This document shows positions 1 through 57,031 of a stretch of 64,000 nt of DNA, in pieces. The notes beneath the pieces were generated by a model, which saw only the letters and a program-made list of their open reading frames with translations, had not been told where the DNA came from and did no database searches. This DNA comes from an uncultured Kiritimatiellota bacterium (GTDB lineage Bacteria > Verrucomicrobiota > Kiritimatiellia > RFP12 > DVOR01), in the NCBI GenBank assembly GCA_944389585.1, contig CALXMW010000004.1, positions 1 through 64,000 on the forward strand. The letters are read 5' to 3'. Made by a program: the position numbers and the translations under genes. How positions within the stretch are numbered: position 1 is the first letter of the stretch; the number at the start of each line of letters is the position of its first letter.

Positions 1-478
1 GACAGACACCCCAAAAGACTTTGTGCCCCTTGTGGTGCTTTGAGCCTTTGTGATAGCCCGCGCAGCGACTACCCGCGCACGTCTGCGACGTGCCTGACAG
101 GCACCCCAAAAGACTTTGTGCCCCTTGTGGTGCTTTGAGCCTTTGTGATAGCCCGCGCAGCGACTACCCGCGGCACGTCTGCGACGTGCCCGCGCCCGCC
201 AAGCGGGCGACGGACTAGGGTGGGCAGAGAGGAGGGGACCACTGGGGCGGCGCCCTGTCCGTCGCCCCGCAGGGGCGCTCTTTGTCCTTTGTGACCGTTG
301 TGCCCTTTGCGATTTCCAAAATCCTGGCAGTCCTGCGTGCGCCAGCACGCCCTCAATCTGCTCCAAATCCGCGAAATCTGCGGTTTCTTTCGCCGCAGAC
401 CTCCTTTGTAATTTCAATCTCCGTGCCCCTCTGTGTGTTCCCTGTGGCCTCCGTGGTCTTCCTAGGGTGTGAATAAGG
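1..478. repeat. interspersed modular repeat element A (left end outside window)
   Basis: No gene is seen here. The stretch begins with two tandem copies of a 95-bp unit (1-95 and 96-190), each ending in a hairpin with the 7-8 bp stem GGCACGTC and a 3-nt loop (77-93, 172-190). Then follow a CGCCCGC/CAA/GCGGGCG hairpin, a CGCCCC/GCA/GGGGCG hairpin, and a terminal block rich in TTTGTGATTTC and TCCGTGTCC words (about 280-465). The same modules recur at 7269-7845, 8316-8790, 53128-53472 and 56450-56990. Short open frames across it arise from the repeat itself and are not credible genes. Confidence 0.85.
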
Positions 479-504: not shown

Positions 505-533
505 TTGACGGGGGGGGGTGGGTGTTGTAGAAT
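505..533 (+). promoter_or_regulatory. sigma70-type promoter of the giant secreted protein gene
   Basis: TTGACG (505-510) and TAGAAT (528-533) are separated by exactly 17 nt, and the spacer is almost entirely G and T. Transcription would start near 540, giving a leader of about 65 nt that ends in the ribosome-binding site AAGGAG (590-595). Confidence 0.7.
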
Positions 534-604
534 ATGGGGCATTTTTCTTGGGCCGGGCGTGCCGAAGGGTTTGTGGCACCCGGGTTGAGAAGGAGACAGA
601 GACC

Positions 605-3600
605 ATGCAGTTGAGACAATTCGCTTTGTGGGCGTTGGCCTCCGTGGCCATCCCAGCCTTTGGGGTGACGCGCGCGACCTCCACGGGCACCTATGACTTC
701 GTCTTTTCCTCGCTGACGCACGTGGGGGGGACGATCGCCGTGGCCGGCTTGAACGAGACGGTCGTCTCGGAGCCCCTCACGTTGGGCGAGGCGACCTTCG
801 ACAAGGCCATCGACTTTTCGGACGGGAGCCCGATCGGCTCCGGCGTGCAGGGCCTGCGCCAGATCGCGTACGTGCCGGACCAGGTGACGGTCAAGTCCGT
901 GGGCGTGGCCTTCACGCAGGGCTCTGAGGCGCCGGCGAAGCTGACGCTGACGGTGGGCGACGCGCCGACGACCTTCACGCTGGCCGAGGGCTCCGAGACG
1001 GTGACGCTCCACGGCGCGGCCGGCAGCCGCACGGCGGTCGTCCACACCTACGCGGCCGCCTCCGGCCCCGTGCTGGCGGACGCCTCGGCGGCCTTCTCCC
1101 TGGCCTTCCCCGAGGACGCCGTGGGCGGCGGCCAGCAGGTGAACAACCTCTTCACCTGCGACGGCAAACCCTTCGTGCGGGTGATCGGCTCGGCCCTCAT
1201 CCACCACTACGTTTTGGAGGTCTCCGACGGCGTGGACACGGAGACGCACGGCCAGGCGCTCTCCACCCTGCTCGCGGACACCGACTTCGTGGACGACGCG
1301 AACCACGTGGTCGTCGTCGAGTTCACGGGCGCGGGCGGCGGCGTGAAGATCGACCGCGCGCTCCAGAAGGCCCCGCTCATCTTCGGCTCGGCGGTGCCCG
1401 CGGCCCAGGCGCACCTGCACTTCGACGGCACGGACGGCACGCCCATCTGCGCGCCGATGACCTTCCGCGACGGCGCGACGACGGGCGGCGTCTCGCTCTA
1501 CGGCCCCTCCTACGCGGAGACCTCGAAGCTGAGCGTGTGGGATCCCAAGGCGCTGCTTGTGCTCTGCGACGTGACGCTCCGCTCGCCCCTCCCGTATGAC
1601 GTGGATCAGCCCGGCGTGGGCTGGTTCCAGAACAACACCATCACCATCCCCGCGAGGCGCACCTTCCGCCTGGAGCTGCCCGCGGGCACCTCCGAGAACC
1701 AGCTGCCCAAGCTGGCCTTCGAGGACGCCACCTCCATCCTCGAGCTGGCCTCCGCCAACGACGCCGCGGGCATCCCCACGAAGTATTACCAGGCGCTCTG
1801 CGCCCAATCCGGCACGCTGGTCATCGACCGCGACTTCTCCGCCGGCGCGCTCATCTTCTGGGGCTTGGGCGCGGAGCGCCTCTCCGTGGTGCTGCGCCCC
1901 GGCCACACTTATGCCATCGACGGCGCCTTCGGCGTCTCGGACTACGCCGAGGCCTCGCTGACGGTCGAGGGCGGCACGCTCAAGGTCAGCTCGCTCAACC
2001 TCGCCGCCAGCGCCGCCACGCTCGACATCCTCGCCGGCGCCGCCGTGGAGGCGGACAGCCTCACCGGCATCGACGCGGGCACCCTCACCACCGTTACCGT
2101 CGCGCAGGGCGCCACCCTCACGCTGAAGGGCGAGCTCGCCGCGGGCTCGGACGCCGGCGACGGCGTGCTCGACCTCACCGTCGCGGGCAAGCTCAACCTG
2201 GGCGGCAACCTCAACATGATCCCCGCCCGCCGCCGCACCCTTGCCCTCGCGGGCGGCGCCATCGTGGCCCAGAGCGTCGTGAAGGTCGATTGCGGCGACG
2301 GCTCCGAGGGCGAGAACTTCCTCGTCGTCCGCGGCGGCGGCGCCATCGAGGGCCCCGTCACCATCCCCGCCGTCACCGGCTCGGGCTGGCTCGCGGATGG
2401 GAGCATGGGCGTGCTCACGCTCGGCGCGGAGGCCACGCTTGGCCGCATCCACGACTACGTCGGCGACATCGAGGGCACCGGCGCCATCAGGCAGATCACC
2501 GGCTCCCTCGGCGACGTCTCCCTGGGCGGCGACTGGCACACGCGCATCGGCGAGCTCATCTTCACGGTCGCCAAGGATTTCCGCGGCACGCTCGGCTTCA
2601 CCGACGGCGACGCCGGCGCGGAGAAGACCGTCGACATCTCGGCGGTGAACGACCTGCTTTCCCTGCCCGGCGCCTTCCGCGTGAACAACCGCCAGCACAT
2701 CGTCATCCGCATCGACCAGTTCGCCGACGCCACCTTCCGCTGGCCCGCCGCGCCCGAGGGCATCACCCTCACCCTCATCGAGTCCGGCGCCTACGGCGGC
2801 GAGCTCACCATCCCCGCCATCCCGCGCGACGACATCGACTTCGAGCTCGCCTCCTTCACGGACGAGGGCGGCTATGCCGTCCGCCCCGAGGGCGACTACG
2901 TCTACCGCCCCGACGAGGACGGCGTCACCGCCGAGCTCACGTGGGACGACCCCGTCTTCACCGGCAAGGGCGCCTGGATCGATGTCGAGTTCAACGGCAC
3001 CACCGCCAACACCGGCTGGTTCACCCTCGGCGACTACGCGGGCAACCCCAGCGAGACGGACGAGCAGAAGCGGCTCTACAACGGCCTCCTCGGCGGCGAC
3101 CGCGTCTACGGCACCGGCTCCGGCGACGACGCGATGGACGTCTACGAGGTGCTGACCCAGGGCAAGACGGTCGACAACTGGGACGGCCCCGACTACACGG
3201 TGAACTTCGTCCGCTCTTCCAACCCTTACCAGGAGCAAGGCAGCCTGCCGCTGTGGTACCGCCCCTTCGTGGCCCTCGCGTCGCTGGAATACCCCGAGGC
3301 CTGGACGGTCGCCCTGCGCCTGAGCGCCCCCAACGCCGCCAACACCTGCCTCCTGGCCCTGGGCCACAACGACGTCGACGACAAGTCCCCCGACGCGGAC
3401 CTTGAGACCTATGCCCTCGTCTTCGCCACCGGCGACGACGCCAACGAGATCTGCCTCTGGGTCTTCCCCGGCAAGGGCGATGCCGCCAACGTCGCCCCCG
3501 CGGAGCCCGCCTTCCGCGTGCGCCTGGCCGACGCCACCAGCGCCCAGCACACCTTCTGCGTCATCTCCGACGGCACCACCCTGGCGCTCTACGTCGACGG

Positions 3601-6600
3601 CTCGCGCCTGGGCGAGCACACGCTCCCCGTGGGCCGCCTGGCCAACGGCCTCCAGGTCGGCACCCAGATGGGCGGCGACAGCGTCGAAAACGACCTCCCG
3701 AACCTCTACGCCCTGGCCAAGGACGCCGGGCGCGGCGCGGGCGGCGCCATCGACTTCCTCCGCTTCTACAAGGGCGCGATGCCCGAATCGGCCATGCGCA
3801 AGCTCGCCGAGACCGCCCCCGCCGTCGTGGCCGGCACCCGCTTCGTCCGCACCCTCGCCTCGGCCACCGAGACCTGGGTGCAGGCCGGCGCCTGGACGAA
3901 GCAGGTCTTCTCCCGCCCCGAGAACGGCACGGCCGGCTGGGTTGACGTCGGCGCCGCCGACGAGCCCGACGAGGGCGTGGAGTGCCGCGTCTACGTCCCC
4001 GACGGCGAGCACGCCCTCCAGGTGAACGTCACGAAGCACGGCGACTTCCCCTCCGCCGACCGTGCCTATTCCACCCTCGTCGTCGCCCCCGCCGAAGGCA
4101 ACGCCGGCGAGGCCACCCTCCGCATCGTCCCCTGCGGCGTCACCGCCAAGGAGACCGACGCGGGCTGGGAGCAGGCCATCATCCAGAGCGACTGGTTCAA
4201 CGACCCCGCCTACGGCACCCTCCGCTTCACCGGCGGCAACGCCGACGCCGTCAGCACGCAGGACGCCTCCCTCACCGGCGCGGCCTACGTCCTCTCCGCC
4301 CCCAGCCGCGACGAGAACACCACCGTCACCACCACGTGGGGAGACGAGGTCGAGCACCAAGAGGGTACGGCGTCGCTCTTTTACCCCTATGGCTGGTACG
4401 AGCAGACCGGCACGCGCACGACCGAGACCACGTGGACCAACGCCGGCGGCGTGGATTCCCGGGCCGTCCACCTGATCGTCGACGCGGGCGTCTGCGCCTT
4501 CTCCCCCGCCTCCGAGGTGGGCCTGCACGCCAACTTCGCCGGCTCCATCACGACGGTCGAGCACCTCTACCGCACCGGCACCTACAAGACGAACTGGGAG
4601 CTTCAGCGGGAGTACACGCCCGACGCGGACGGCGAGCGCGTCACGGCCTCGGAGACCACGGCCGCCGATGAGACCTACGGCACGCAGGTGAACACCCTGA
4701 CGGTGATCGCCGGGCCGACGCTGGCGCGCGGGTCGACGCGCGAATCGCAGACCTTCCGCCTCTCCGGCCCCGTGGTCGTCAAGGGGACGCCCGCCGAAAG
4801 GAGCGGCGTGCTCGGCAACCCCGGCGTGACGGGCGAGGGGCAGACCTCCACCCACGTCTGGGTGCCGGCCTTCGCCGGCGGCCGCTGGCTCTTCACCGAG
4901 GCGCCCGACAGCTCCCTGGACGCCGGGTTGGCGGCCATCGGCCGCCTGGCCGCCGGCAGGCTCTACCTGCTCCTCGGCCCCGGCGACGCCAGGGCGGCCT
5001 CCGCGGCGGCGTGGCACCGCTACGGCTACGCGGACGCCGAGACCACCGAGAGCGGCCTCCAGCCCACCCCCGCCGGAGAGGGCGACTACGCCGCCGCCGA
5101 CGCCTTCCAGATCCGCCTCTCCGGGGACGCGGCGCTGGACCTGGACGCCCTGCCGGCCTCCGGCGCGGTGCAGACCTTCTTCGTGGAGAAGGCCGCCGGC
5201 GCGGAAGGCACGCCCAAGCTGACGCTCACCATCAGCACGCGAAACGCCGAGGGCAACCCCTACCTCTGCGTCGAGCGCGAGGTCATCGTGGCCGGCGTGC
5301 GCCTGGACGTCTCCAACGGCCTGACAGGCAACAAGACCAACGTCAACACCCTGCGCGTGACCCGCGCCGACGGCACCCACTCGCCCATCCATAAGGGCAA
5401 CCAGGAGGGCGGCGCCTACATCTCCGGCCCCGGCGTCATCGACTGGGACTTCGGCGCGGAGAACTCCATCCCCCGCCTGGAGGTCGTCCCCGGCGCGGAG
5501 CTCATCTTCACCGTGGGGCAGAACTTCCGCGTCCACGGCACCACCCTCGTGGCCCAGGGCCGGACGGACGTGGAGGAGCCCGTCGTCGGGCCGCCGACCC
5601 CGGAGAGCATGGCGGCCGGCGCCTGGATCCACTACGCCAGCCCGGATCCCTTCCTGGGCGCGGACGTGGAGCTGGGCGAGGGCGCCTACTTCGGCTTCCA
5701 TGCCGACGCCGCCTCGGCCGACGCCGACATCCAGGAGGAGGGCGTCATCCTGGAGGGCGAGCTGCGCCTGACCGGCAACGCCACCCTCCGCGCCGACCAC
5801 GCCCACGGCGTCCCCCTCGACGGGGCCGCGCGCATCCCGCACTTCGTCGCCGCCGGCGGCATCCGCGCCACGAAGCTCGGCCTGACCCTGACGGTGGACG
5901 CGCCCTCCCACCAGGTGGCCGACGGGCAGCAGGGCTCCGTCGACTGGCACAGCCACACCTCCGCGCTGACGGGCGAGGAGGACTTCCGCCTCTGGAAGAC
6001 CGGCCCCGGCACGGTGACCTTCTACACCCTCGAGCCGCCCTCCGTCTCCGGCAAGGTGACGGTGGAGGAGGGCACCCTGGCCGTCTCCGGCGCGCCCGAC
6101 ACCCCCATCGGATCCAAGGGCCTCGAGGTCTGGGCGGGCGCGACGCTCGGCGATTCGGGCCGAGCCGCCGGCACCGGCACGGGCAGCCACCGCCTGGCCG
6201 CCATCCCCGCGGGGCAGACCCTCGCCGGCGGCGGCACGATCGGGGGCTGGGTGCGCCTGGAGCGCGGCGCCAAACTCGTGGCCAAGGACGGCGATACCCT
6301 CACCGTCACCGGCGGCGTCTCGGCAGACGCCTCCGGCGAGGCCGACATCACCGTCGACCTGACCGACTACACCGTCGGCGAGGGCCAGCGCGCCCAGCCC
6401 TACCTGGTCGTCAACCGCGAGGAGCGCGACCTCCGCGCCCGCCTCCTGCCCATGAAGGGCGAGGCGCGCTGGGACAGCGTGGCGTGGCTCCAGACCCGGG
6501 AGGACGGCACGGTCACCACCTCGCACGCCGCCCGCGCGCCCCAGTTCCCCGCGCCCCAGGACTACGAGGGCGGCGAGGACAACGCCATCAACGCCTACAT

Positions 6601-7207
6601 CGCCCCCTTCTTCATCAGCCAGTACCAGGCCAAGGGCCACGCCTACGTGGGCGCCACCCACGGCCGCACCCGCGGCGACGAGGTCCTCAGCGGCTCGGCC
6701 ATCAGCGAGGCGCTCCTCTGCTTCGGCAACATCAGCGCCTTCGTCGACACGGACGAGCGGACCGAGGCCGACGGGCGCACCTACATCGGCGGCGCCAACT
6801 TCTACGTGGCCTACGAGTTTGGCGTCTCGGACGTCGCGATGGCCGAGGTCGCGGGTGAGCCCTGCCTGGTCGTGGGCGTTTCCGTCGAGGCCACGCTCGA
6901 GGAGGCCTTCCCCGACGTCGCCTTCAACGGGGAGCAAAAGGCCTTCAAGGCCAGCTACAACGCCGGCACGACGCTCGCCCTCGGCCTCGTCCGGGCGGAC
7001 GGCACGGTCGAGCCCCTGCCCGAGAAGGTCACGGTCACCGAGGTCACCGGCCCCGACGGCCTGGCCGAGGGCACCGCGGCGACGCCCGAGGCGCCCGGCC
7101 TGCGTTGGTTCCGCGTGCCCTACGCCGACCTCTCCGAGGCCGCCCAGGCCGACGACGGCGTCATCCGCCTGACGGCCACGGCCGAGTACGCCCCCGCGGC
7201 GCAATGA
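605..7207 (+). CDS. giant secreted beta-rich protein with LamG-like and autotransporter-type repeats
   Basis: A 2200-residue protein. The start at 605 is chosen because AAGGAG lies 9 nt upstream and residues 1-23 (MQLRQFALWALASVAIPAFG...) form a signal peptide; an in-frame ATG at 518 lies upstream of the likely transcript start. The body is repetitive, with many G-T-L-x-V and L-x-L-x-G-x-A turns typical of parallel beta-helices. Residues about 895-1075 look like a LamG/concanavalin-type lectin domain (HTFCVISDGTTLALYVDGS, then IDFLRFYKGAMPESAM). Residues about 1800-1915 contain a GPGTVTF...VEEGTLAVSG pattern like the autotransporter-associated beta-strand repeat. No C-terminal beta-barrel, PEP-CTERM or LPXTG sorting signal is visible, so its anchoring is unknown. 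A surface adhesin or carbohydrate-binding role is inference. It is monocistronic, with its own promoter and terminator, and is flanked by repeat elements on both sides. Confidence 0.85.
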   Translation: MQLRQFALWALASVAIPAFGVTRATSTGTYDFVFSSLTHVGGTIAVAGLNETVVSEPLTLGEATFDKAIDFSDGSPIGSGVQGLRQIAYVPDQVTVKSVGVAFTQGSEAPAKLTLTVGDAPTTFTLAEGSETVTLHGAAGSRTAVVHTYAAASGPVLADASAAFSLAFPEDAVGGGQQVNNLFTCDGKPFVRVIGSALIHHYVLEVSDGVDTETHGQALSTLLADTDFVDDANHVVVVEFTGAGGGVKIDRALQKAPLIFGSAVPAAQAHLHFDGTDGTPICAPMTFRDGATTGGVSLYGPSYAETSKLSVWDPKALLVLCDVTLRSPLPYDVDQPGVGWFQNNTITIPARRTFRLELPAGTSENQLPKLAFEDATSILELASANDAAGIPTKYYQALCAQSGTLVIDRDFSAGALIFWGLGAERLSVVLRPGHTYAIDGAFGVSDYAEASLTVEGGTLKVSSLNLAASAATLDILAGAAVEADSLTGIDAGTLTTVTVAQGATLTLKGELAAGSDAGDGVLDLTVAGKLNLGGNLNMIPARRRTLALAGGAIVAQSVVKVDCGDGSEGENFLVVRGGGAIEGPVTIPAVTGSGWLADGSMGVLTLGAEATLGRIHDYVGDIEGTGAIRQITGSLGDVSLGGDWHTRIGELIFTVAKDFRGTLGFTDGDAGAEKTVDISAVNDLLSLPGAFRVNNRQHIVIRIDQFADATFRWPAAPEGITLTLIESGAYGGELTIPAIPRDDIDFELASFTDEGGYAVRPEGDYVYRPDEDGVTAELTWDDPVFTGKGAWIDVEFNGTTANTGWFTLGDYAGNPSETDEQKRLYNGLLGGDRVYGTGSGDDAMDVYEVLTQGKTVDNWDGPDYTVNFVRSSNPYQEQGSLPLWYRPFVALASLEYPEAWTVALRLSAPNAANTCLLALGHNDVDDKSPDADLETYALVFATGDDANEICLWVFPGKGDAANVAPAEPAFRVRLADATSAQHTFCVISDGTTLALYVDGSRLGEHTLPVGRLANGLQVGTQMGGDSVENDLPNLYALAKDAGRGAGGAIDFLRFYKGAMPESAMRKLAETAPAVVAGTRFVRTLASATETWVQAGAWTKQVFSRPENGTAGWVDVGAADEPDEGVECRVYVPDGEHALQVNVTKHGDFPSADRAYSTLVVAPAEGNAGEATLRIVPCGVTAKETDAGWEQAIIQSDWFNDPAYGTLRFTGGNADAVSTQDASLTGAAYVLSAPSRDENTTVTTTWGDEVEHQEGTASLFYPYGWYEQTGTRTTETTWTNAGGVDSRAVHLIVDAGVCAFSPASEVGLHANFAGSITTVEHLYRTGTYKTNWELQREYTPDADGERVTASETTAADETYGTQVNTLTVIAGPTLARGSTRESQTFRLSGPVVVKGTPAERSGVLGNPGVTGEGQTSTHVWVPAFAGGRWLFTEAPDSSLDAGLAAIGRLAAGRLYLLLGPGDARAASAAAWHRYGYADAETTESGLQPTPAGEGDYAAADAFQIRLSGDAALDLDALPASGAVQTFFVEKAAGAEGTPKLTLTISTRNAEGNPYLCVEREVIVAGVRLDVSNGLTGNKTNVNTLRVTRADGTHSPIHKGNQEGGAYISGPGVIDWDFGAENSIPRLEVVPGAELIFTVGQNFRVHGTTLVAQGRTDVEEPVVGPPTPESMAAGAWIHYASPDPFLGADVELGEGAYFGFHADAASADADIQEEGVILEGELRLTGNATLRADHAHGVPLDGAARIPHFVAAGGIRATKLGLTLTVDAPSHQVADGQQGSVDWHSHTSALTGEEDFRLWKTGPGTVTFYTLEPPSVSGKVTVEEGTLAVSGAPDTPIGSKGLEVWAGATLGDSGRAAGTGTGSHRLAAIPAGQTLAGGGTIGGWVRLERGAKLVAKDGDTLTVTGGVSADASGEADITVDLTDYTVGEGQRAQPYLVVNREERDLRARLLPMKGEARWDSVAWLQTREDGTVTTSHAARAPQFPAPQDYEGGEDNAINAYIAPFFISQYQAKGHAYVGATHGRTRGDEVLSGSAISEALLCFGNISAFVDTDERTEADGRTYIGGANFYVAYEFGVSDVAMAEVAGEPCLVVGVSVEATLEEAFPDVAFNGEQKAFKASYNAGTTLALGLVRADGTVEPLPEKVTVTEVTGPDGLAEGTAATPEAPGLRWFRVPYADLSEAAQADDGVIRLTATAEYAPAAQ

Positions 7208-7258: not shown

Positions 7259-7320
7259 GCGCACCTAGAGAAGATCACGGAGGCAACGGAGGACACGCAG
7301 AGGGACACAGGGATGGAAAT

Positions 7321-7392
7321 CACAAAGGACGCAAAGGACGCAAAGGACACAAAGGACGCAAAGGACACAAAGGACACAAAGGACACAAAGGA
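7321..7392. repeat. 9-bp tandem repeat array, 8 units
   Basis: Eight consecutive 9-bp units alternate between CACAAAGGA and CGCAAAGGA. It is followed by a purine-only tract (AAAAGGAAAGGG...) up to about 7438. The unit is the same word that appears, degenerated, through all five interspersed elements. Confidence 0.95.
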
Positions 7393-7510
7393 GAAAAGGA
7401 AAGGGAAAAGGGAAAATGGGGAATGGGGATGGGAGGGGCAAGGGGCGCTGCCCCTTGGACCCCGGCAGGGGGAAGCTCCCCCTGCACCCGCGGCACGTCT
7501 GCGACGTGCC

Positions 7511-7704
7511 TGACAGGCACCCCAAAAGACTTTGTGCCCCTTGTGGTGCTTTGAGCCTTTGTGATAGCCCGCGCAGCGACAACCCGCGGCACGTCCGGCG
7601 GACGTGCCTGACAGGCAACCCAAAAGAGTTTGTGTCCTTTGTGGTTCTTTGAGCCTTTGTGATAGCCCGCGCAGCGAAAACCCGCGGCACGTCTACGACG
7701 TGCC
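7511..7704. repeat. two tandem ~97-bp units inside element B
   Basis: Units 7511-7608 (98 bp) and 7609-7704 (96 bp) share the order TGACAGGCA, CCCAAAAGA, a run of TTTGTG words, GATAGCCCGCGCAGCGA, then a GGCACGTC hairpin. They differ by scattered substitutions, for example GACTTTGTGCCCC against GAGTTTGTGTCC. Confidence 0.85.
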
Positions 7705-7888
7705 AACGCCCGCCAAGCGGGCGACGGACTGGGACGGTGCCTCGCCCGTCGCCCCGCAGGGGCGCTCTCCGTTCTTTGTGCCCTTTGTGATTTCAATCCC
7801 CGTGTTCCTCTGCGTGTCCTCCGTGTCCTCTGTGATCTCCCCTGCGTCGTCCTTCCTTTGCGTTCTTTGTGATTTCCAAAAAAAGAGC

Positions 7889-7936: not shown

Positions 7937-8012
7937 GCGAACTTAGCTCAATTGGCAGAGCTCCACCTTGCCAAGGTGGAGGTTGAGGGTTCGAGTCCCT
8001 TAGTTCGCTCCA
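7937..8012 (+). tRNA. tRNA-Gly (GCC), copy 1
   Basis: 76 nt including an encoded CCA (8010-8012). The acceptor stem is GCGAACT with AGTTCGC, the anticodon loop is TTGCCAA (anticodon GCC) closed by CCACC/GGTGG, and the T arm holds GGTTCGAGTCC. The sequence is identical to the copy at 8123. Confidence 0.97.
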
Positions 8013-8015
8013 AAT

Positions 8016-8091
8016 GGGGGTGTAGCTCAGTTGGTAGAGCAAGTGACTCTTAATCACTGGGTCCACGGTTCAAGCCCGTGCACCCCTACCA
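8016..8091 (+). tRNA. tRNA-Lys (CTT), copy 1
   Basis: 76 nt with encoded CCA. The anticodon loop is CTCTTAA, closed by AGTGA/TCACT, giving anticodon CTT. The acceptor GGGGGTG pairs with CACCCCT, with a G-U pair at position 1-72. It starts 3 nt after the tRNA-Gly CCA. Confidence 0.96.
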
Positions 8092-8122
8092 TCCGGGGAT
8101 GGGACGCCAAAACAGCCATTGC

Positions 8123-8198
8123 GCGAACTTAGCTCAATTGGCAGAGCTCCACCTTGCCAAGGTGGAGGTTGAGGGTTCGAGTCCCTTAGTTCGCTCCA
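8123..8198 (+). tRNA. tRNA-Gly (GCC), copy 2
   Basis: Identical in sequence to 7937-8012 and offset by exactly 186 nt. It lies 31 nt after the first tRNA-Lys. Confidence 0.97.
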
Positions 8199-8201
8199 AA
8201 T

Positions 8202-8277
8202 GGGGGTGTAGCTCAGTTGGTAGAGCAAGTGACTCTTAATCACTGGGTCCACGGTTCAAGCCCGTGCACCCCTACCA
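8202..8277 (+). tRNA. tRNA-Lys (CTT), copy 2
   Basis: Identical to 8016-8091, again offset by 186 nt, so the Gly-Lys pair has been duplicated as one block. A terminator hairpin follows 7 nt later. Confidence 0.96.
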
Positions 8278-8283
8278 TTTTCC

Positions 8284-8308: not shown

Positions 8309-8315
8309 CGTGCCC

Positions 8316-8790
8316 GGAAATCACAAAGGACACAAAACGGAGAACGGAGAACGGAGCGCGCGGCGGCGAAGCCGCAAGCCTTCCCCGGCTACGGAACGCC
8401 CTGACGGGACGGCGCCCAGTCCGTCGCCCGCTTGGCTGGTGCTGGCACGTCGCGGACGTGCCGCGGGTTGTCGCTGCGCGGGCTATCACAAAGGCTCAAA
8501 GAACCACAAAGGACACAAAGTCTTTTGGGTTGCCTGTCAGGCACGTCCGGCGGACGTGCCGCGGGTTGTCGCTGCGCGGGCTATCACAAAGGCTCAAAGA
8601 ACCACAAAGGACACAAAGTCTTTTGGGTTGCCTGTCAGGCACGTCCGGCGGACGTGCCGCGGGTGCAGGGGGAGCTTCCCCCTGCCGGGGTCCAAGGGGC
8701 GGTGCCCCTTGCCCCTCCCATCCCCTTCCCCTTTCTTTTCTTTCTGTGTCTCTCTGCGTGTCCTCTGTGGCCTCTGTGGTCTCCCCTGCG
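8316..8790. repeat. interspersed modular repeat element C (inverted relative to B)
   Basis: Same module set as element B, read on the opposite strand: AAATCACAAAGGACACAAA at the left, hairpin GCGGC/GAA/GCCGC (8363-8375), the GGCACGTC hairpin (8444-8462), two 98-bp units, hairpins GCAGGGGGA/GCT and CAAGGGGC/GGT (about 8667-8710), a pyrimidine tract, and CTGCGTGTCCTCTGTGG at the right. No gene is seen. Confidence 0.85.
8463..8658. repeat. two identical 98-bp tandem units in element C
   Basis: 8463-8560 and 8561-8658 match at every base. Each runs from GCGGGTTGTCGCTGCGCGGGC through four 9-bp CACAAAG words to the hairpin GGCACGTCC/GGC/GGACGTGCC. Perfect identity implies recent duplication. Confidence 0.95.
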
Positions 8791-8874
8791 CCGTGCAAGC
8801 CTTCGAGTCCTTAGCCGTGGAAGGTTCGCCTTCGGCTCACGGTGTCCGTTGTGATTTTTGTTCTCTGATTTTTC

Positions 8875-53083: not shown

Positions 53084-53127
53084 CAATCCGCCCCACCCGC
53101 GCTTTTTTCCCCACGAAAAGAAAAGGG

Positions 53128-53472
53128 AAATCACAAAGGACACAAAACGGAGAACGGAGCGCGCGGCGGCGAAAGCCGCAAGCCTTCATCGGCTACAGAA
53201 AACGCCCCTGCGGGGCGACGGGCAGACGTTCGCCGCGCGGGCTGTCGCCGCGCGGGCTACCACAAGGGCACAAAGGCGCACAAAGGGCGCAAGGTCTTTT
53301 GGGGCGCCCCTCACCCGTCGCCCGCTTGGCGGGTGTTGGCACGTCGCAGACGTGCCGCGGGTCCAAGGGGCAGCGCCCCTTGCCCCAATTTCCCTTTCCT
53401 TTCCCTTTCCCCTTCGTGTCCGTCGTGATTTCGCTCTGCGTGTCCCTCTGCGTGTCCTCTGTGATCGCGGCA
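53128..53472. repeat. interspersed modular repeat element D
   Basis: No gene is seen. Modules in element C orientation: AAATCACAAAGGACACAAA, hairpin GCGGC.../GCCGC, CGCCCC/TGC/GGGGCG, a single diverged ~98-bp unit with CACAAAGG words, the CCCGCTTGGCGGG hairpin, the GGCACGTC/GCA/GACGTGCC hairpin (about 53339-53357), CAAGGGGC/AGC/GCCCCTTG, a pyrimidine tract, and CTGCGTGTCCTCTGTGATC. It ends within 3 nt of the stop codon of the gene at 53475. Confidence 0.8.
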
Positions 53473-55739: not shown

Positions 55740-56444
55740 ATGGACGTGTCGGCTTTGACGGAACATCGGGATGCCATCATCTTGGGGTTGGATCTCTTCG
55801 GCACGGCGGTCTTCGCCGTGACGGGGGCGTTGCGGGGGTGGCGCAGCCGGTTGGACTTCTTTGGGGTCATCGTGCTGGCGTGCGCGGTGGGCATCGGCGG
55901 CGGGCTGATGCGCGACGCGCTCATCGGGGCGACCCCCGCGGCGGCCTTCACCGACAGCCGCTATTTGATCATCTGCGCGGCGGTGGGGGCGGCGGCCTTT
56001 TACGTGGCACCGCGCCTGAGCGACCGCTGGAACGTCATCCCGGTGCTCGACGCGGTGGGGCTGGGCGTCTTCACGGCCATCGGCTGCGAGAAGGCCGCCG
56101 CCTACGGTTGCGAATGGGTGGCCATCGTGCTCTGCGGCGTCATGACGGCGGTGGGCGGCGGCGTCATCCGCGACGTGCTGGCCATGCGCATCCCCGCCGT
56201 CCTGCGCAGCGACTTCTACGCCACGGCCTCGGTGCTCGGCGGCGGCCTCTTCCTGGCGCTGACGCGCTGGGCGCCGGAAGACGACTTCTTCTACTTCTGG
56301 CGCTTTTTGGCCGTTTCGGGCTTTGTGCTGCTCATCCGGCTGGTGGCGATGCGCTTCAAGTTCCGCCTGCCCGAGGCCCACACCGTCCCCGCCCGCCAAC
56401 GCTGGCACCTCAAATACCCCCGCCTCCGCCTCCCAAAAGAATAA
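55740..56444 (+). CDS. TRIC/UPF0126-family membrane protein (YadS/YicG-like)
   Basis: 234 residues with seven membrane helices in two related halves, each with the family motif GGG-x-x-RD: IGGGLMRDALIG and VGGGVIRDVLAM. LDLFGTAVFAVTGALRGWR and LDAVGLGVFTAIGCEKA are also typical. Prokaryotic members form trimeric cation channels, and some relatives have been linked to glycine uptake. Monocistronic; a repeat element begins right after the stop codon and no terminator hairpin with a T-run is evident. Confidence 0.9.
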   Translation: MDVSALTEHRDAIILGLDLFGTAVFAVTGALRGWRSRLDFFGVIVLACAVGIGGGLMRDALIGATPAAAFTDSRYLIICAAVGAAAFYVAPRLSDRWNVIPVLDAVGLGVFTAIGCEKAAAYGCEWVAIVLCGVMTAVGGGVIRDVLAMRIPAVLRSDFYATASVLGGGLFLALTRWAPEDDFFYFWRFLAVSGFVLLIRLVAMRFKFRLPEAHTVPARQRWHLKYPRLRLPKE

Positions 56445-56449
56445 ACACG

Positions 56450-56990
56450 CCGCGCGGGCACTCGCTGCGCGGGCTCTCACAAAGGCACAAAGGACCACAA
56501 AGGGCGCAAGGTTTTTTGGGTCGCCCCGGAAAGGGCGCCGTCGCAGTGGTCTCAGGGGTCCCAGTGGTCCCAGACCGGCTGTTTCGGCGGCGCAGGCTGG
56601 GACCACTGAGACCACTGGGACAACTGGGACGGGCAACGCCCTCCAGCCGCCCTCCTCTCTGCCCACCCCAGCCTGTCGCCCGCTTGGCGGACGTGCCGCG
56701 GGTTTTCGCTGCGCGGGCTCTCACAAAGGCACAAAGGACCACAAAGGACACAAAGTCTTTTGGGTTGCCTGTCAGGCACGTCGCGGACGTGCCGCGGGTG
56801 CAGGGGGAGCTTCCCCCCTGCCGGGGTCCAAGGGGCCGCGCCCCTTGCCCTTCCCTTTCCCTTCTCCTTCTCCTTCCCCTTTCCTTTTTCCGTCCTCCCC
56901 TTTGTGCCCTTTGTGTCCGTTGTGATTTTCTGCGTCGTGCGTCTCCGTGTTCCTCTGCGAGTCCTCCGTGCCCTCTGTGATCGCTCCCTC
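56450..56990. repeat. interspersed modular repeat element E
   Basis: No gene is seen. Same modules as element C: two 98-bp-like units (about 56450-56530 and 56698-56800) now separated by a palindromic block, the GGCACGTC/GCG hairpin (about 56777-56795), GCAGGGGGA-type and CAAGGGGC-type hairpins, a pyrimidine tract (about 56845-56900), and CTCTGCGAGTCCTCCGTGCCCTCTGTGATC at the right. It separates the TRIC-like gene from the second large secreted protein. Confidence 0.8.
56544..56630. repeat. large imperfect palindrome of 9-bp units inside element E
   Basis: CAGTGGTCCCAG (56562-56573) pairs perfectly with CTGGGACCACTG (56597-56608), and pairing continues imperfectly outward for about 18 more bases on each side; the loop is 23 nt. 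Each arm is itself a 9-bp tandem repeat (CAGTGGTCT, CAGGGGTCC, CAGTGGTCC). Confidence 0.8.
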
Positions 56991-57031
56991 GGGTTACCCC
57001 ACACGTCTATTTGTTTTTGTGAAAAGAACAC

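Follow-up and report, generated by a model that had tools for sequence, protein, structure and literature searches.

Among the systems described so far, the nearest to the elements reported here is the 23S rRNA intervening sequence (IVS) that carries an S23/IVP gene, as in Coxiella burnetii, which is regarded as selfish (PMC4990558). Like the cassettes presented below, such an IVS places a small PF05635 four-helix-bundle gene between inverted repeats, whose pairing gives a long stem. Unlike an IVS, the cassettes occupy intergenic DNA and gene junctions, their ends are locus-specific arrays of 7-8-bp words, and gene-less copies are numerous; since they lie between protein genes and not in 23S rRNA, membership of the 23S IVS class is not met.

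Several families of short bacterial repeats share other features with these elements. As in MITEs, the elements are short, gene-less and intergenic, with mirrored ends and many copies, and so fit the definition of short elements without a gene, bearing terminal inverted repeats and present in many copies, but no target-site duplication was found, the ends are degenerate word arrays, and the partner is not a known transposase; the ends are instead held in common with GxxExxY and four-helix-bundle cassettes, whose autonomy is unproven. GTAG REPs with their RAYT genes (REPtrons) are likewise palindromic, interspersed and presumed to be mobilised in trans, but the genome studied here has no RAYT gene and its elements are composites, 300-980 bp long, in which word arrays are combined with hairpins. 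CGTC-tagged REPs, for which no transposase is known, are defined by a CGTC tag and an 8-9 bp stem opening with two A-T pairs (PMC3733652). Two hairpins of the present elements, h0 and h4, carry CGTC beside the stem (CGTCGCCCGCTTGGCGGGC), and in-frame intragenic copies occur too, but the stems lack the two initial A-T pairs and are found beside word arrays, so membership of this class is not met either. Finally, TAACTGA heptamer direct repeats in Beggiatoaceae have been interpreted as signals for translation, lying upstream of start codons (PMC4679880). They resemble the arrays described here in being tandem 7-bp words that are intergenic and patchy across distant phyla, whereas here inverted arrays surround a small gene; by analogy, the heptamers might be the same kind of array.

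The window analysed is a stretch of 64,000 nucleotides from G000, a Kiritimatiellaeota MAG of 1.95 Mb in 26 contigs that is 94% complete. We read its five elements, A to E, as gene-less, nested derivatives of two kinds of small mobile cassette, moved in trans and now serving as recombination substrates. Our confidence in this reading only modestly exceeds our doubt (probability about 0.58).

Anatomy and spread of the elements

The sequence-only reading had proposed a single modular element in five copies, built of an end block, short hairpins, units of about 98 bp and an opposite end block. All five stretches and the parts described for them were confirmed, with the following boundaries (from BLAST for whole elements) and contents.

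1 to 478, no strand assigned: element A, truncated where the contig begins; contains two 98-bp-type units, hairpins h1, h0 and h4, and blocks of CACAAAG, CGCAGATT and CACAGAG words
318 to 390, minus strand: terminus of CGCAGATT words with a GGACTGCCAG tail, in element A
7267 to 7880, no strand assigned: element B; mirrored CACAGAG/CACAAAG ends, h3, h2, h1, two 98-bp-type units, h0 and h4
7276 to 7390, plus strand: word array on the left side of B, with CACAGAG/CACGGAG words followed by 9-bp words of the CACAAAGGA type
7768 to 7834, minus strand: word array on the right side of B, repeating the left one in inverted copies
8315 to 8870, no strand assigned: element C, its core oriented opposite to that of B; CACAAAG and GAACGGA words on the left, two perfect 98-bp units, h2, h3, and CACAGAG words on the right
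8335 to 8355, plus strand: GAACGGA 7-bp words (a four-helix-bundle-type end) nested in the CACAAAG end of C
8452 to 8647, plus strand: the two identical 98-bp units of C, a hairpin-to-hairpin tandem duplication
8665 to 8710, plus strand: hairpins h2 (GCAGGGGGAGCTTCCCCCTGC) and h3 (CAAGGGGCGGTGCCCCTTG) of C
53115 to 53472, no strand assigned: element D; CACAAAG, GAACGGA, h4, CACAAAG, h1, h3, and inverted CACAAAG and CACAGAG words
56436 to 56995, no strand assigned: element E; CACAAAG, h4, an inverted TGGGAC pair, one 98-bp unit, h1, h2, h3, and inverted CACAAAG and CACAGAG words

The longest piece shared by two elements is 231 nt of B and C (7503-7733 and 8415-8645), which are complementary at 95%; there are also direct families of 133 nt and 98 nt, and most shared pieces show 80-100% identity or complementarity. 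Within B, the mirrored ends are 79 nt long (7267-7345 and 7765-7843, 84%). With up to two mismatches, CACAAAGGACACAAAG occurs 22 times in the window, and with up to three mismatches the end word TCTCTGTGTCCCTCTGCGTGTCC occurs five times; all of these occurrences fall within A to E, and shuffled sequences gave 0 for either. K-mer density segmentation of the loci and a loose hairpin regular expression were discarded as too noisy.

A module map of the elements reveals an outer frame, in which CACAGAG and then CACAAAG words in one orientation are answered by CACAAAG and then CACAGAG words in the other, that is fully mirrored in B and partly so in the rest. Inside it lies a core of hairpins h1 (CACGTC..GACGTG), h2 (GCAGGGGG..CCCCCTGC) and h3 (AAGGGGC..GCCCCTT) with the 98-bp unit and the CGTC-tagged palindromes h0 and h4, in either orientation. 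The shared module order claimed earlier thus held, but not rigidly: D is without h2, A is without h2 and h3 and has the additional CGCAGATT module, E has the extra TGGGAC pair, and the 98-bp unit varies from 0 to 3 copies per element across the genome.

Three further observations concern the window. Inverted pairs of the 9-bp TGGGACCAC (TGGGAC) word occur at 56549-56630 and in many elements elsewhere in the genome. Between the inverted elements B and C, at 7937-8278, a tRNA-Gly/tRNA-Lys pair is perfectly tandem-duplicated with a spacing of 186 bp. At 518-7207 lies an open reading frame of 2229 amino acids without a Pfam match.

One alternative holds that the elements are structured RNA spread by retro-mobilisation, such as a DGR or a group II intron. 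In its favour, B folds end to end (z = -12.7) and the h2 hairpin shows compensatory, covarying variants among other copies. Against it, none of the 17 genomes of the genus contains RVT_1, so that the elements do not qualify as DGRs, group II introns or retrons, and an Rfam search of the window returned only tRNAs, so that no known structured RNA was recognised; this explanation is close to being ruled out. Both the fold of B and the covariation of one hairpin follow from the inverted repeats and do not thereby show transcription, and either selection or palindrome correction could have produced the h2 covariation. A structured RNA, one of the three identities suggested earlier, is therefore not needed as a primary one.

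The elements are not confined to the window; had they been, the sequence-only reading would have been refuted. Element C has 84 matches across the genome, in which there are at least 35 or so elements longer than 180 bp (on contigs C1-C4, C7, C8, C17, C22 and C26), the count being a lower bound as several run into contig ends; core matches also occur in four of 16 other genomes of the genus. The statement that the elements make up nearly all non-coding stretches over 300 nt remains that reading's own, with no gene-caller check behind it. As for its claim that the window lacks any mobile-element gene, RVT_1 and Y1_Tnp are indeed absent, and absent from the whole genome, though other transposase families were not systematically covered.

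These results bear on another alternative, in which classical REP/BIME or MITE sequences are moved by a RAYT (Y1) transposase or by another insertion sequence. Palindromes, intergenic position and either orientation speak for it, and REP families are known in the verrucomicrobial relative O. terrae (PMC3733652). However, Y1_Tnp has 0 matches in the source genome and only weak ones in two other genomes of the genus, so that a RAYT/Y1 partner was rejected, GTAG REP/REPtron membership is not met, and we consider this explanation highly improbable. For mobilisation in trans, our preferred reading, the candidates carried by cassettes are the small proteins to which we now turn.

Gene-bearing cassettes with the same ends

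Each cassette holds a single short gene of about 120-135 codons. On either side stand degenerate 7-9-bp words, in arrays that are inverted with respect to each other, and both arrays often enclose a GC-rich hairpin. GxxExxY cassettes have 9-bp CRCRRAR-type words (CACAGAGGA, CACAAAGGA, CGCAGATTT), the arrays sharing the loose common form TTTAACCACRRARNNCACRRAR, and four-helix-bundle cassettes have 7-8-bp words (GAGAACGG, GTGAATC, TTGGAAGT). The GxxExxY proteins meet the membership thresholds of their family (TIGR04256, 96-100 bits against a cut-off of 35; PF13366, 96-98 bits), which has the PD-(D/E)XK nuclease fold, and the nuclease-fold residues E37, D78, E88 and K90 are invariant in eight sequences. 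The four-helix-bundle proteins likewise exceed the cut-offs for the 23S IVP family (TIGR02436, 115.5 bits; PF05635, 124 bits), and their gene is under purifying selection (dN/dS 0.03-0.25).

None of the GxxExxY or four-helix-bundle matches found in the source genome lies inside the window; intact GxxExxY genes lie at C2:228208 and C3:153661, and intact four-helix-bundle genes at C3:224283 and C7:18685. The GxxExxY gene at C2:228208 sits between AGATCACGGAGGTTCACGGAGG and its mirror CCTCCGTGGGTCTCCGTGATCT, ends that resemble those of the elements (AGATCACAGAGGACACGCAGAGG), and that at C3:153661 is flanked by CACAAAG-type arrays. In G005, a GxxExxY gene with the same neighbour gene as one in the source genome has GGAAATCACAAAGGACACAAAGG with CACAGAGG words outside it, which is the end block of the sequence-only reading itself, and it has GGAAATCACAAAGGACACAAAGGACACAAAGG, matched closely by the sequence across the gene. 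GxxExxY cassettes of related species, in G003 and G006, have ends like the CGCAGATT module of element A (318-390). The four-helix-bundle gene at C3:224283, like its relatives, stands between the GAACGGA words that also occur inside C, D and many other elements. The parts of A to E are, in our view, cassette ends of several kinds, one nested within another, and not, as had been proposed, one element. The TGGGAC pair and the h1-h3 hairpins could not be linked to any gene-bearing cassette found here. At C1:120699 (L231), a four-helix-bundle gene that covers only profile positions 1-67, and is possibly broken, still lies within TTGGAAGT arrays.

Matched inverted arrays around these genes extend well beyond the source genome. 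For each gene, the upstream flank was aligned with the downstream flank in reverse complement, and matched pairs of flanks were compared with mismatched ones. GxxExxY loci exceeded the 95th percentile of mismatched pairs in 15 of 17 cases among relatives and in 22 of 30 across the phylum; a score of at least 18 was reached at 24 of the 30 phylum loci but at none of 58 control positions, offset by 900 bp, and at none of 29 ParE toxin genes, used as a further control. Four-helix-bundle genes had matched arrays at 21 of 28 loci in relatives and, with their alignment used for a contig scan of named genomes, at 47 of 75 loci in more than 10 phyla, with the shifted-position control at the 5% level. 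The word is the same on both sides of a locus and differs between loci (GAGAACGG, GTGAATC, TTGGAAGT, AGTGGCT, GGGACCG and others). GxxExxY is present in 157 of 289 genomes of the phylum (E <= 1e-25) and four-helix-bundle proteins in 41 of 50 relatives; a phage collection gave no four-helix-bundle match. Two Calothrix plasmids with an S23 gene were set aside, as the larger, integrase-containing operon common to both left no cassette boundary to be read. We found no paper describing GxxExxY or four-helix-bundle genes flanked by word arrays, in a literature search that omitted most subscription journals.

Insertion, turnover and rearrangement

Comparison with G001, a sister species with about 93% identity in aligned stretches, and with G003 and G005 shows that the gene-bearing cassettes are insertions and that cassettes with different words replace one another at one site. 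The site GxxExxY#2 is empty in G001 and holds different gene-less composites in G003 and G005. The four-helix-bundle site on C3 is a tight gene junction without a cassette in G001 and G003. A site on C1 has no cassette in G001 and, between nearly identical flanks, different four-helix-bundle cassettes, built with GCTGATTG words in G003 and with TTGGAAGT words in G005.

About nine non-coding elements of the source genome are absent from colinear sites in G001, where there is often an unrelated spacer of 26-300 bp in place of a clean junction; others, at C2:7251 and C1:163549, are common to both genomes at high identity. The element at C1:163549-163845 (L104), beside the tmRNA gene, is nearly identical in G001 (L110) while the DNA on its far side is less so, a degree of conservation that is unusual for a non-coding repeat. 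No target-site duplication was seen against G001, G003 or G005, the replaced spacers blurring the junctions, and no precise excision was found at the sites compared. Terminator hairpins lie beside eight of 66 element ends versus 0.2% of random positions; as most random positions are coding, we do not read this difference as a sign of targeting.

Such spacers are a point in favour of a second kind of alternative, in which the elements are self-made filler: slippage would expand words, template switching at hairpins would mirror them, and the genes would be passengers with nothing mobilised. The tandem degenerate words and perfect short palindromes also fit, as does the similar size of the unrelated spacers at orthologous sites. 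On the other hand, long modules at 80-98% identity in many places need copying, and both gene families, but not ParE genes, sit specifically inside matched arrays. We regard filler as unlikely.

Returning to mobile cassettes and their derivatives, the flanks of elements are not neighbours in G001 at 10 of 23 sites. In one stretch of G001 (C4:66181-84000), the order of the source genome breaks at the element at C2:19636, at B and at C; another break, at C4:23500, has no element. Recombination between copies is a possible explanation for these breaks, although misassembly of MAGs at repeats could mimic them. With that caveat, the ten sites support the suggestion, made from sequence alone, that the elements are recombination substrates. 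The companion suggestion of a non-autonomous mobile element is supported by presence and absence at orthologous sites, by ends held in common with gene-bearing cassettes, and by nesting.

A prophage word dialect and a proposed mechanism

A stretch of contig C7 (4000-31000; L341, L342) is a prophage with a GTGAATC word dialect, about a dozen array sites and one four-helix-bundle gene. It is Mu-like, with Mu Gam, Mu I protease and Mu transposition-like proteins. Of the 42 GTGAATC-triplet matches in the genome, 38 fall within 23 kb (C7:5.7-28.8 kb) around that gene. The arrays flank several native start codons and run in frame into N-termini (for example, NDSRFAIHDSP), and a related stretch in G001 has other words or none at the same prophage sites. 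This clustering is good evidence that one word spread from one gene. It is also the best evidence for a further alternative, that the arrays are operators which bind the small protein, as RNA stems or DNA, and so regulate its own gene and others that carry the word. Each gene sits within its own word, about a dozen pairs of phage-word arrays occur at prophage gene starts, several of them flanking start codons, and the four-helix-bundle protein weakly matches the Avd-like PF22296 (E 0.005, below its cut-off). The chromosomal elements, however, lie at gene ends and after terminators, are nested, differ in presence between sister species and stand at rearrangements; the operator model appears improbable. 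Several observations nevertheless count against mobile cassettes, our preferred reading. Besides the missing target-site duplications and precise excision, and the modules not linked to a gene-bearing cassette, the prophage arrays at start codons resemble half-element insertion or array growth and not a two-ended cassette, and the presence of a gene predicts word abundance imperfectly.

The sequences show the common ends, the general anatomy, the insertion of cassettes, replacement at one site and purifying selection; the role of the small proteins as mobilising factors, the chemistry involved and the concerted copying of arrays are all inferred. In the mechanism we propose, the target of a cassette's protein would be the word-array ends, which are able to form fold-back hairpins; the protein would move its own cassette as well as gene-less copies in trans. 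Words would drift from locus to locus, but hairpin-templated copying would keep the left and right arrays of each one alike, and nested insertion at tolerated gene junctions would build composites. The elements of the window would be copies whose ends survived without the gene and which gained further insertions at the same tolerated spots, and such copies would then provide homology for rearrangements. That one homologous protein family is found with many different words speaks against simple sequence-specific recognition. A bolder reading, which we offer only as a possibility, is that there exists a widespread and undescribed class of mobile element, with a single small gene (GxxExxY nuclease-fold or four-helix bundle) between inverted, locus-specific arrays of 7-9-bp words, whose ends are recognised by their form, as repeated words that fold back, and not by a fixed sequence, and which, in many bacterial genomes, seeds a large part of the word-rich non-coding DNA.

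To our knowledge, no role has been assigned to GxxExxY, a common small protein family. If the small proteins do work word-ended cassettes, a single explanation would cover many uncharacterised genes and much repetitive intergenic DNA, and it would become possible to test where 23S rRNA intervening sequences come from. Should the bolder reading also be true, it would provide a role for two large families of unknown function and a DNA-mobile origin for the four-helix-bundle IVS elements. In this way, word-ended cassettes may offer a means by which bacterial genomes rearrange without ordinary insertion sequences.
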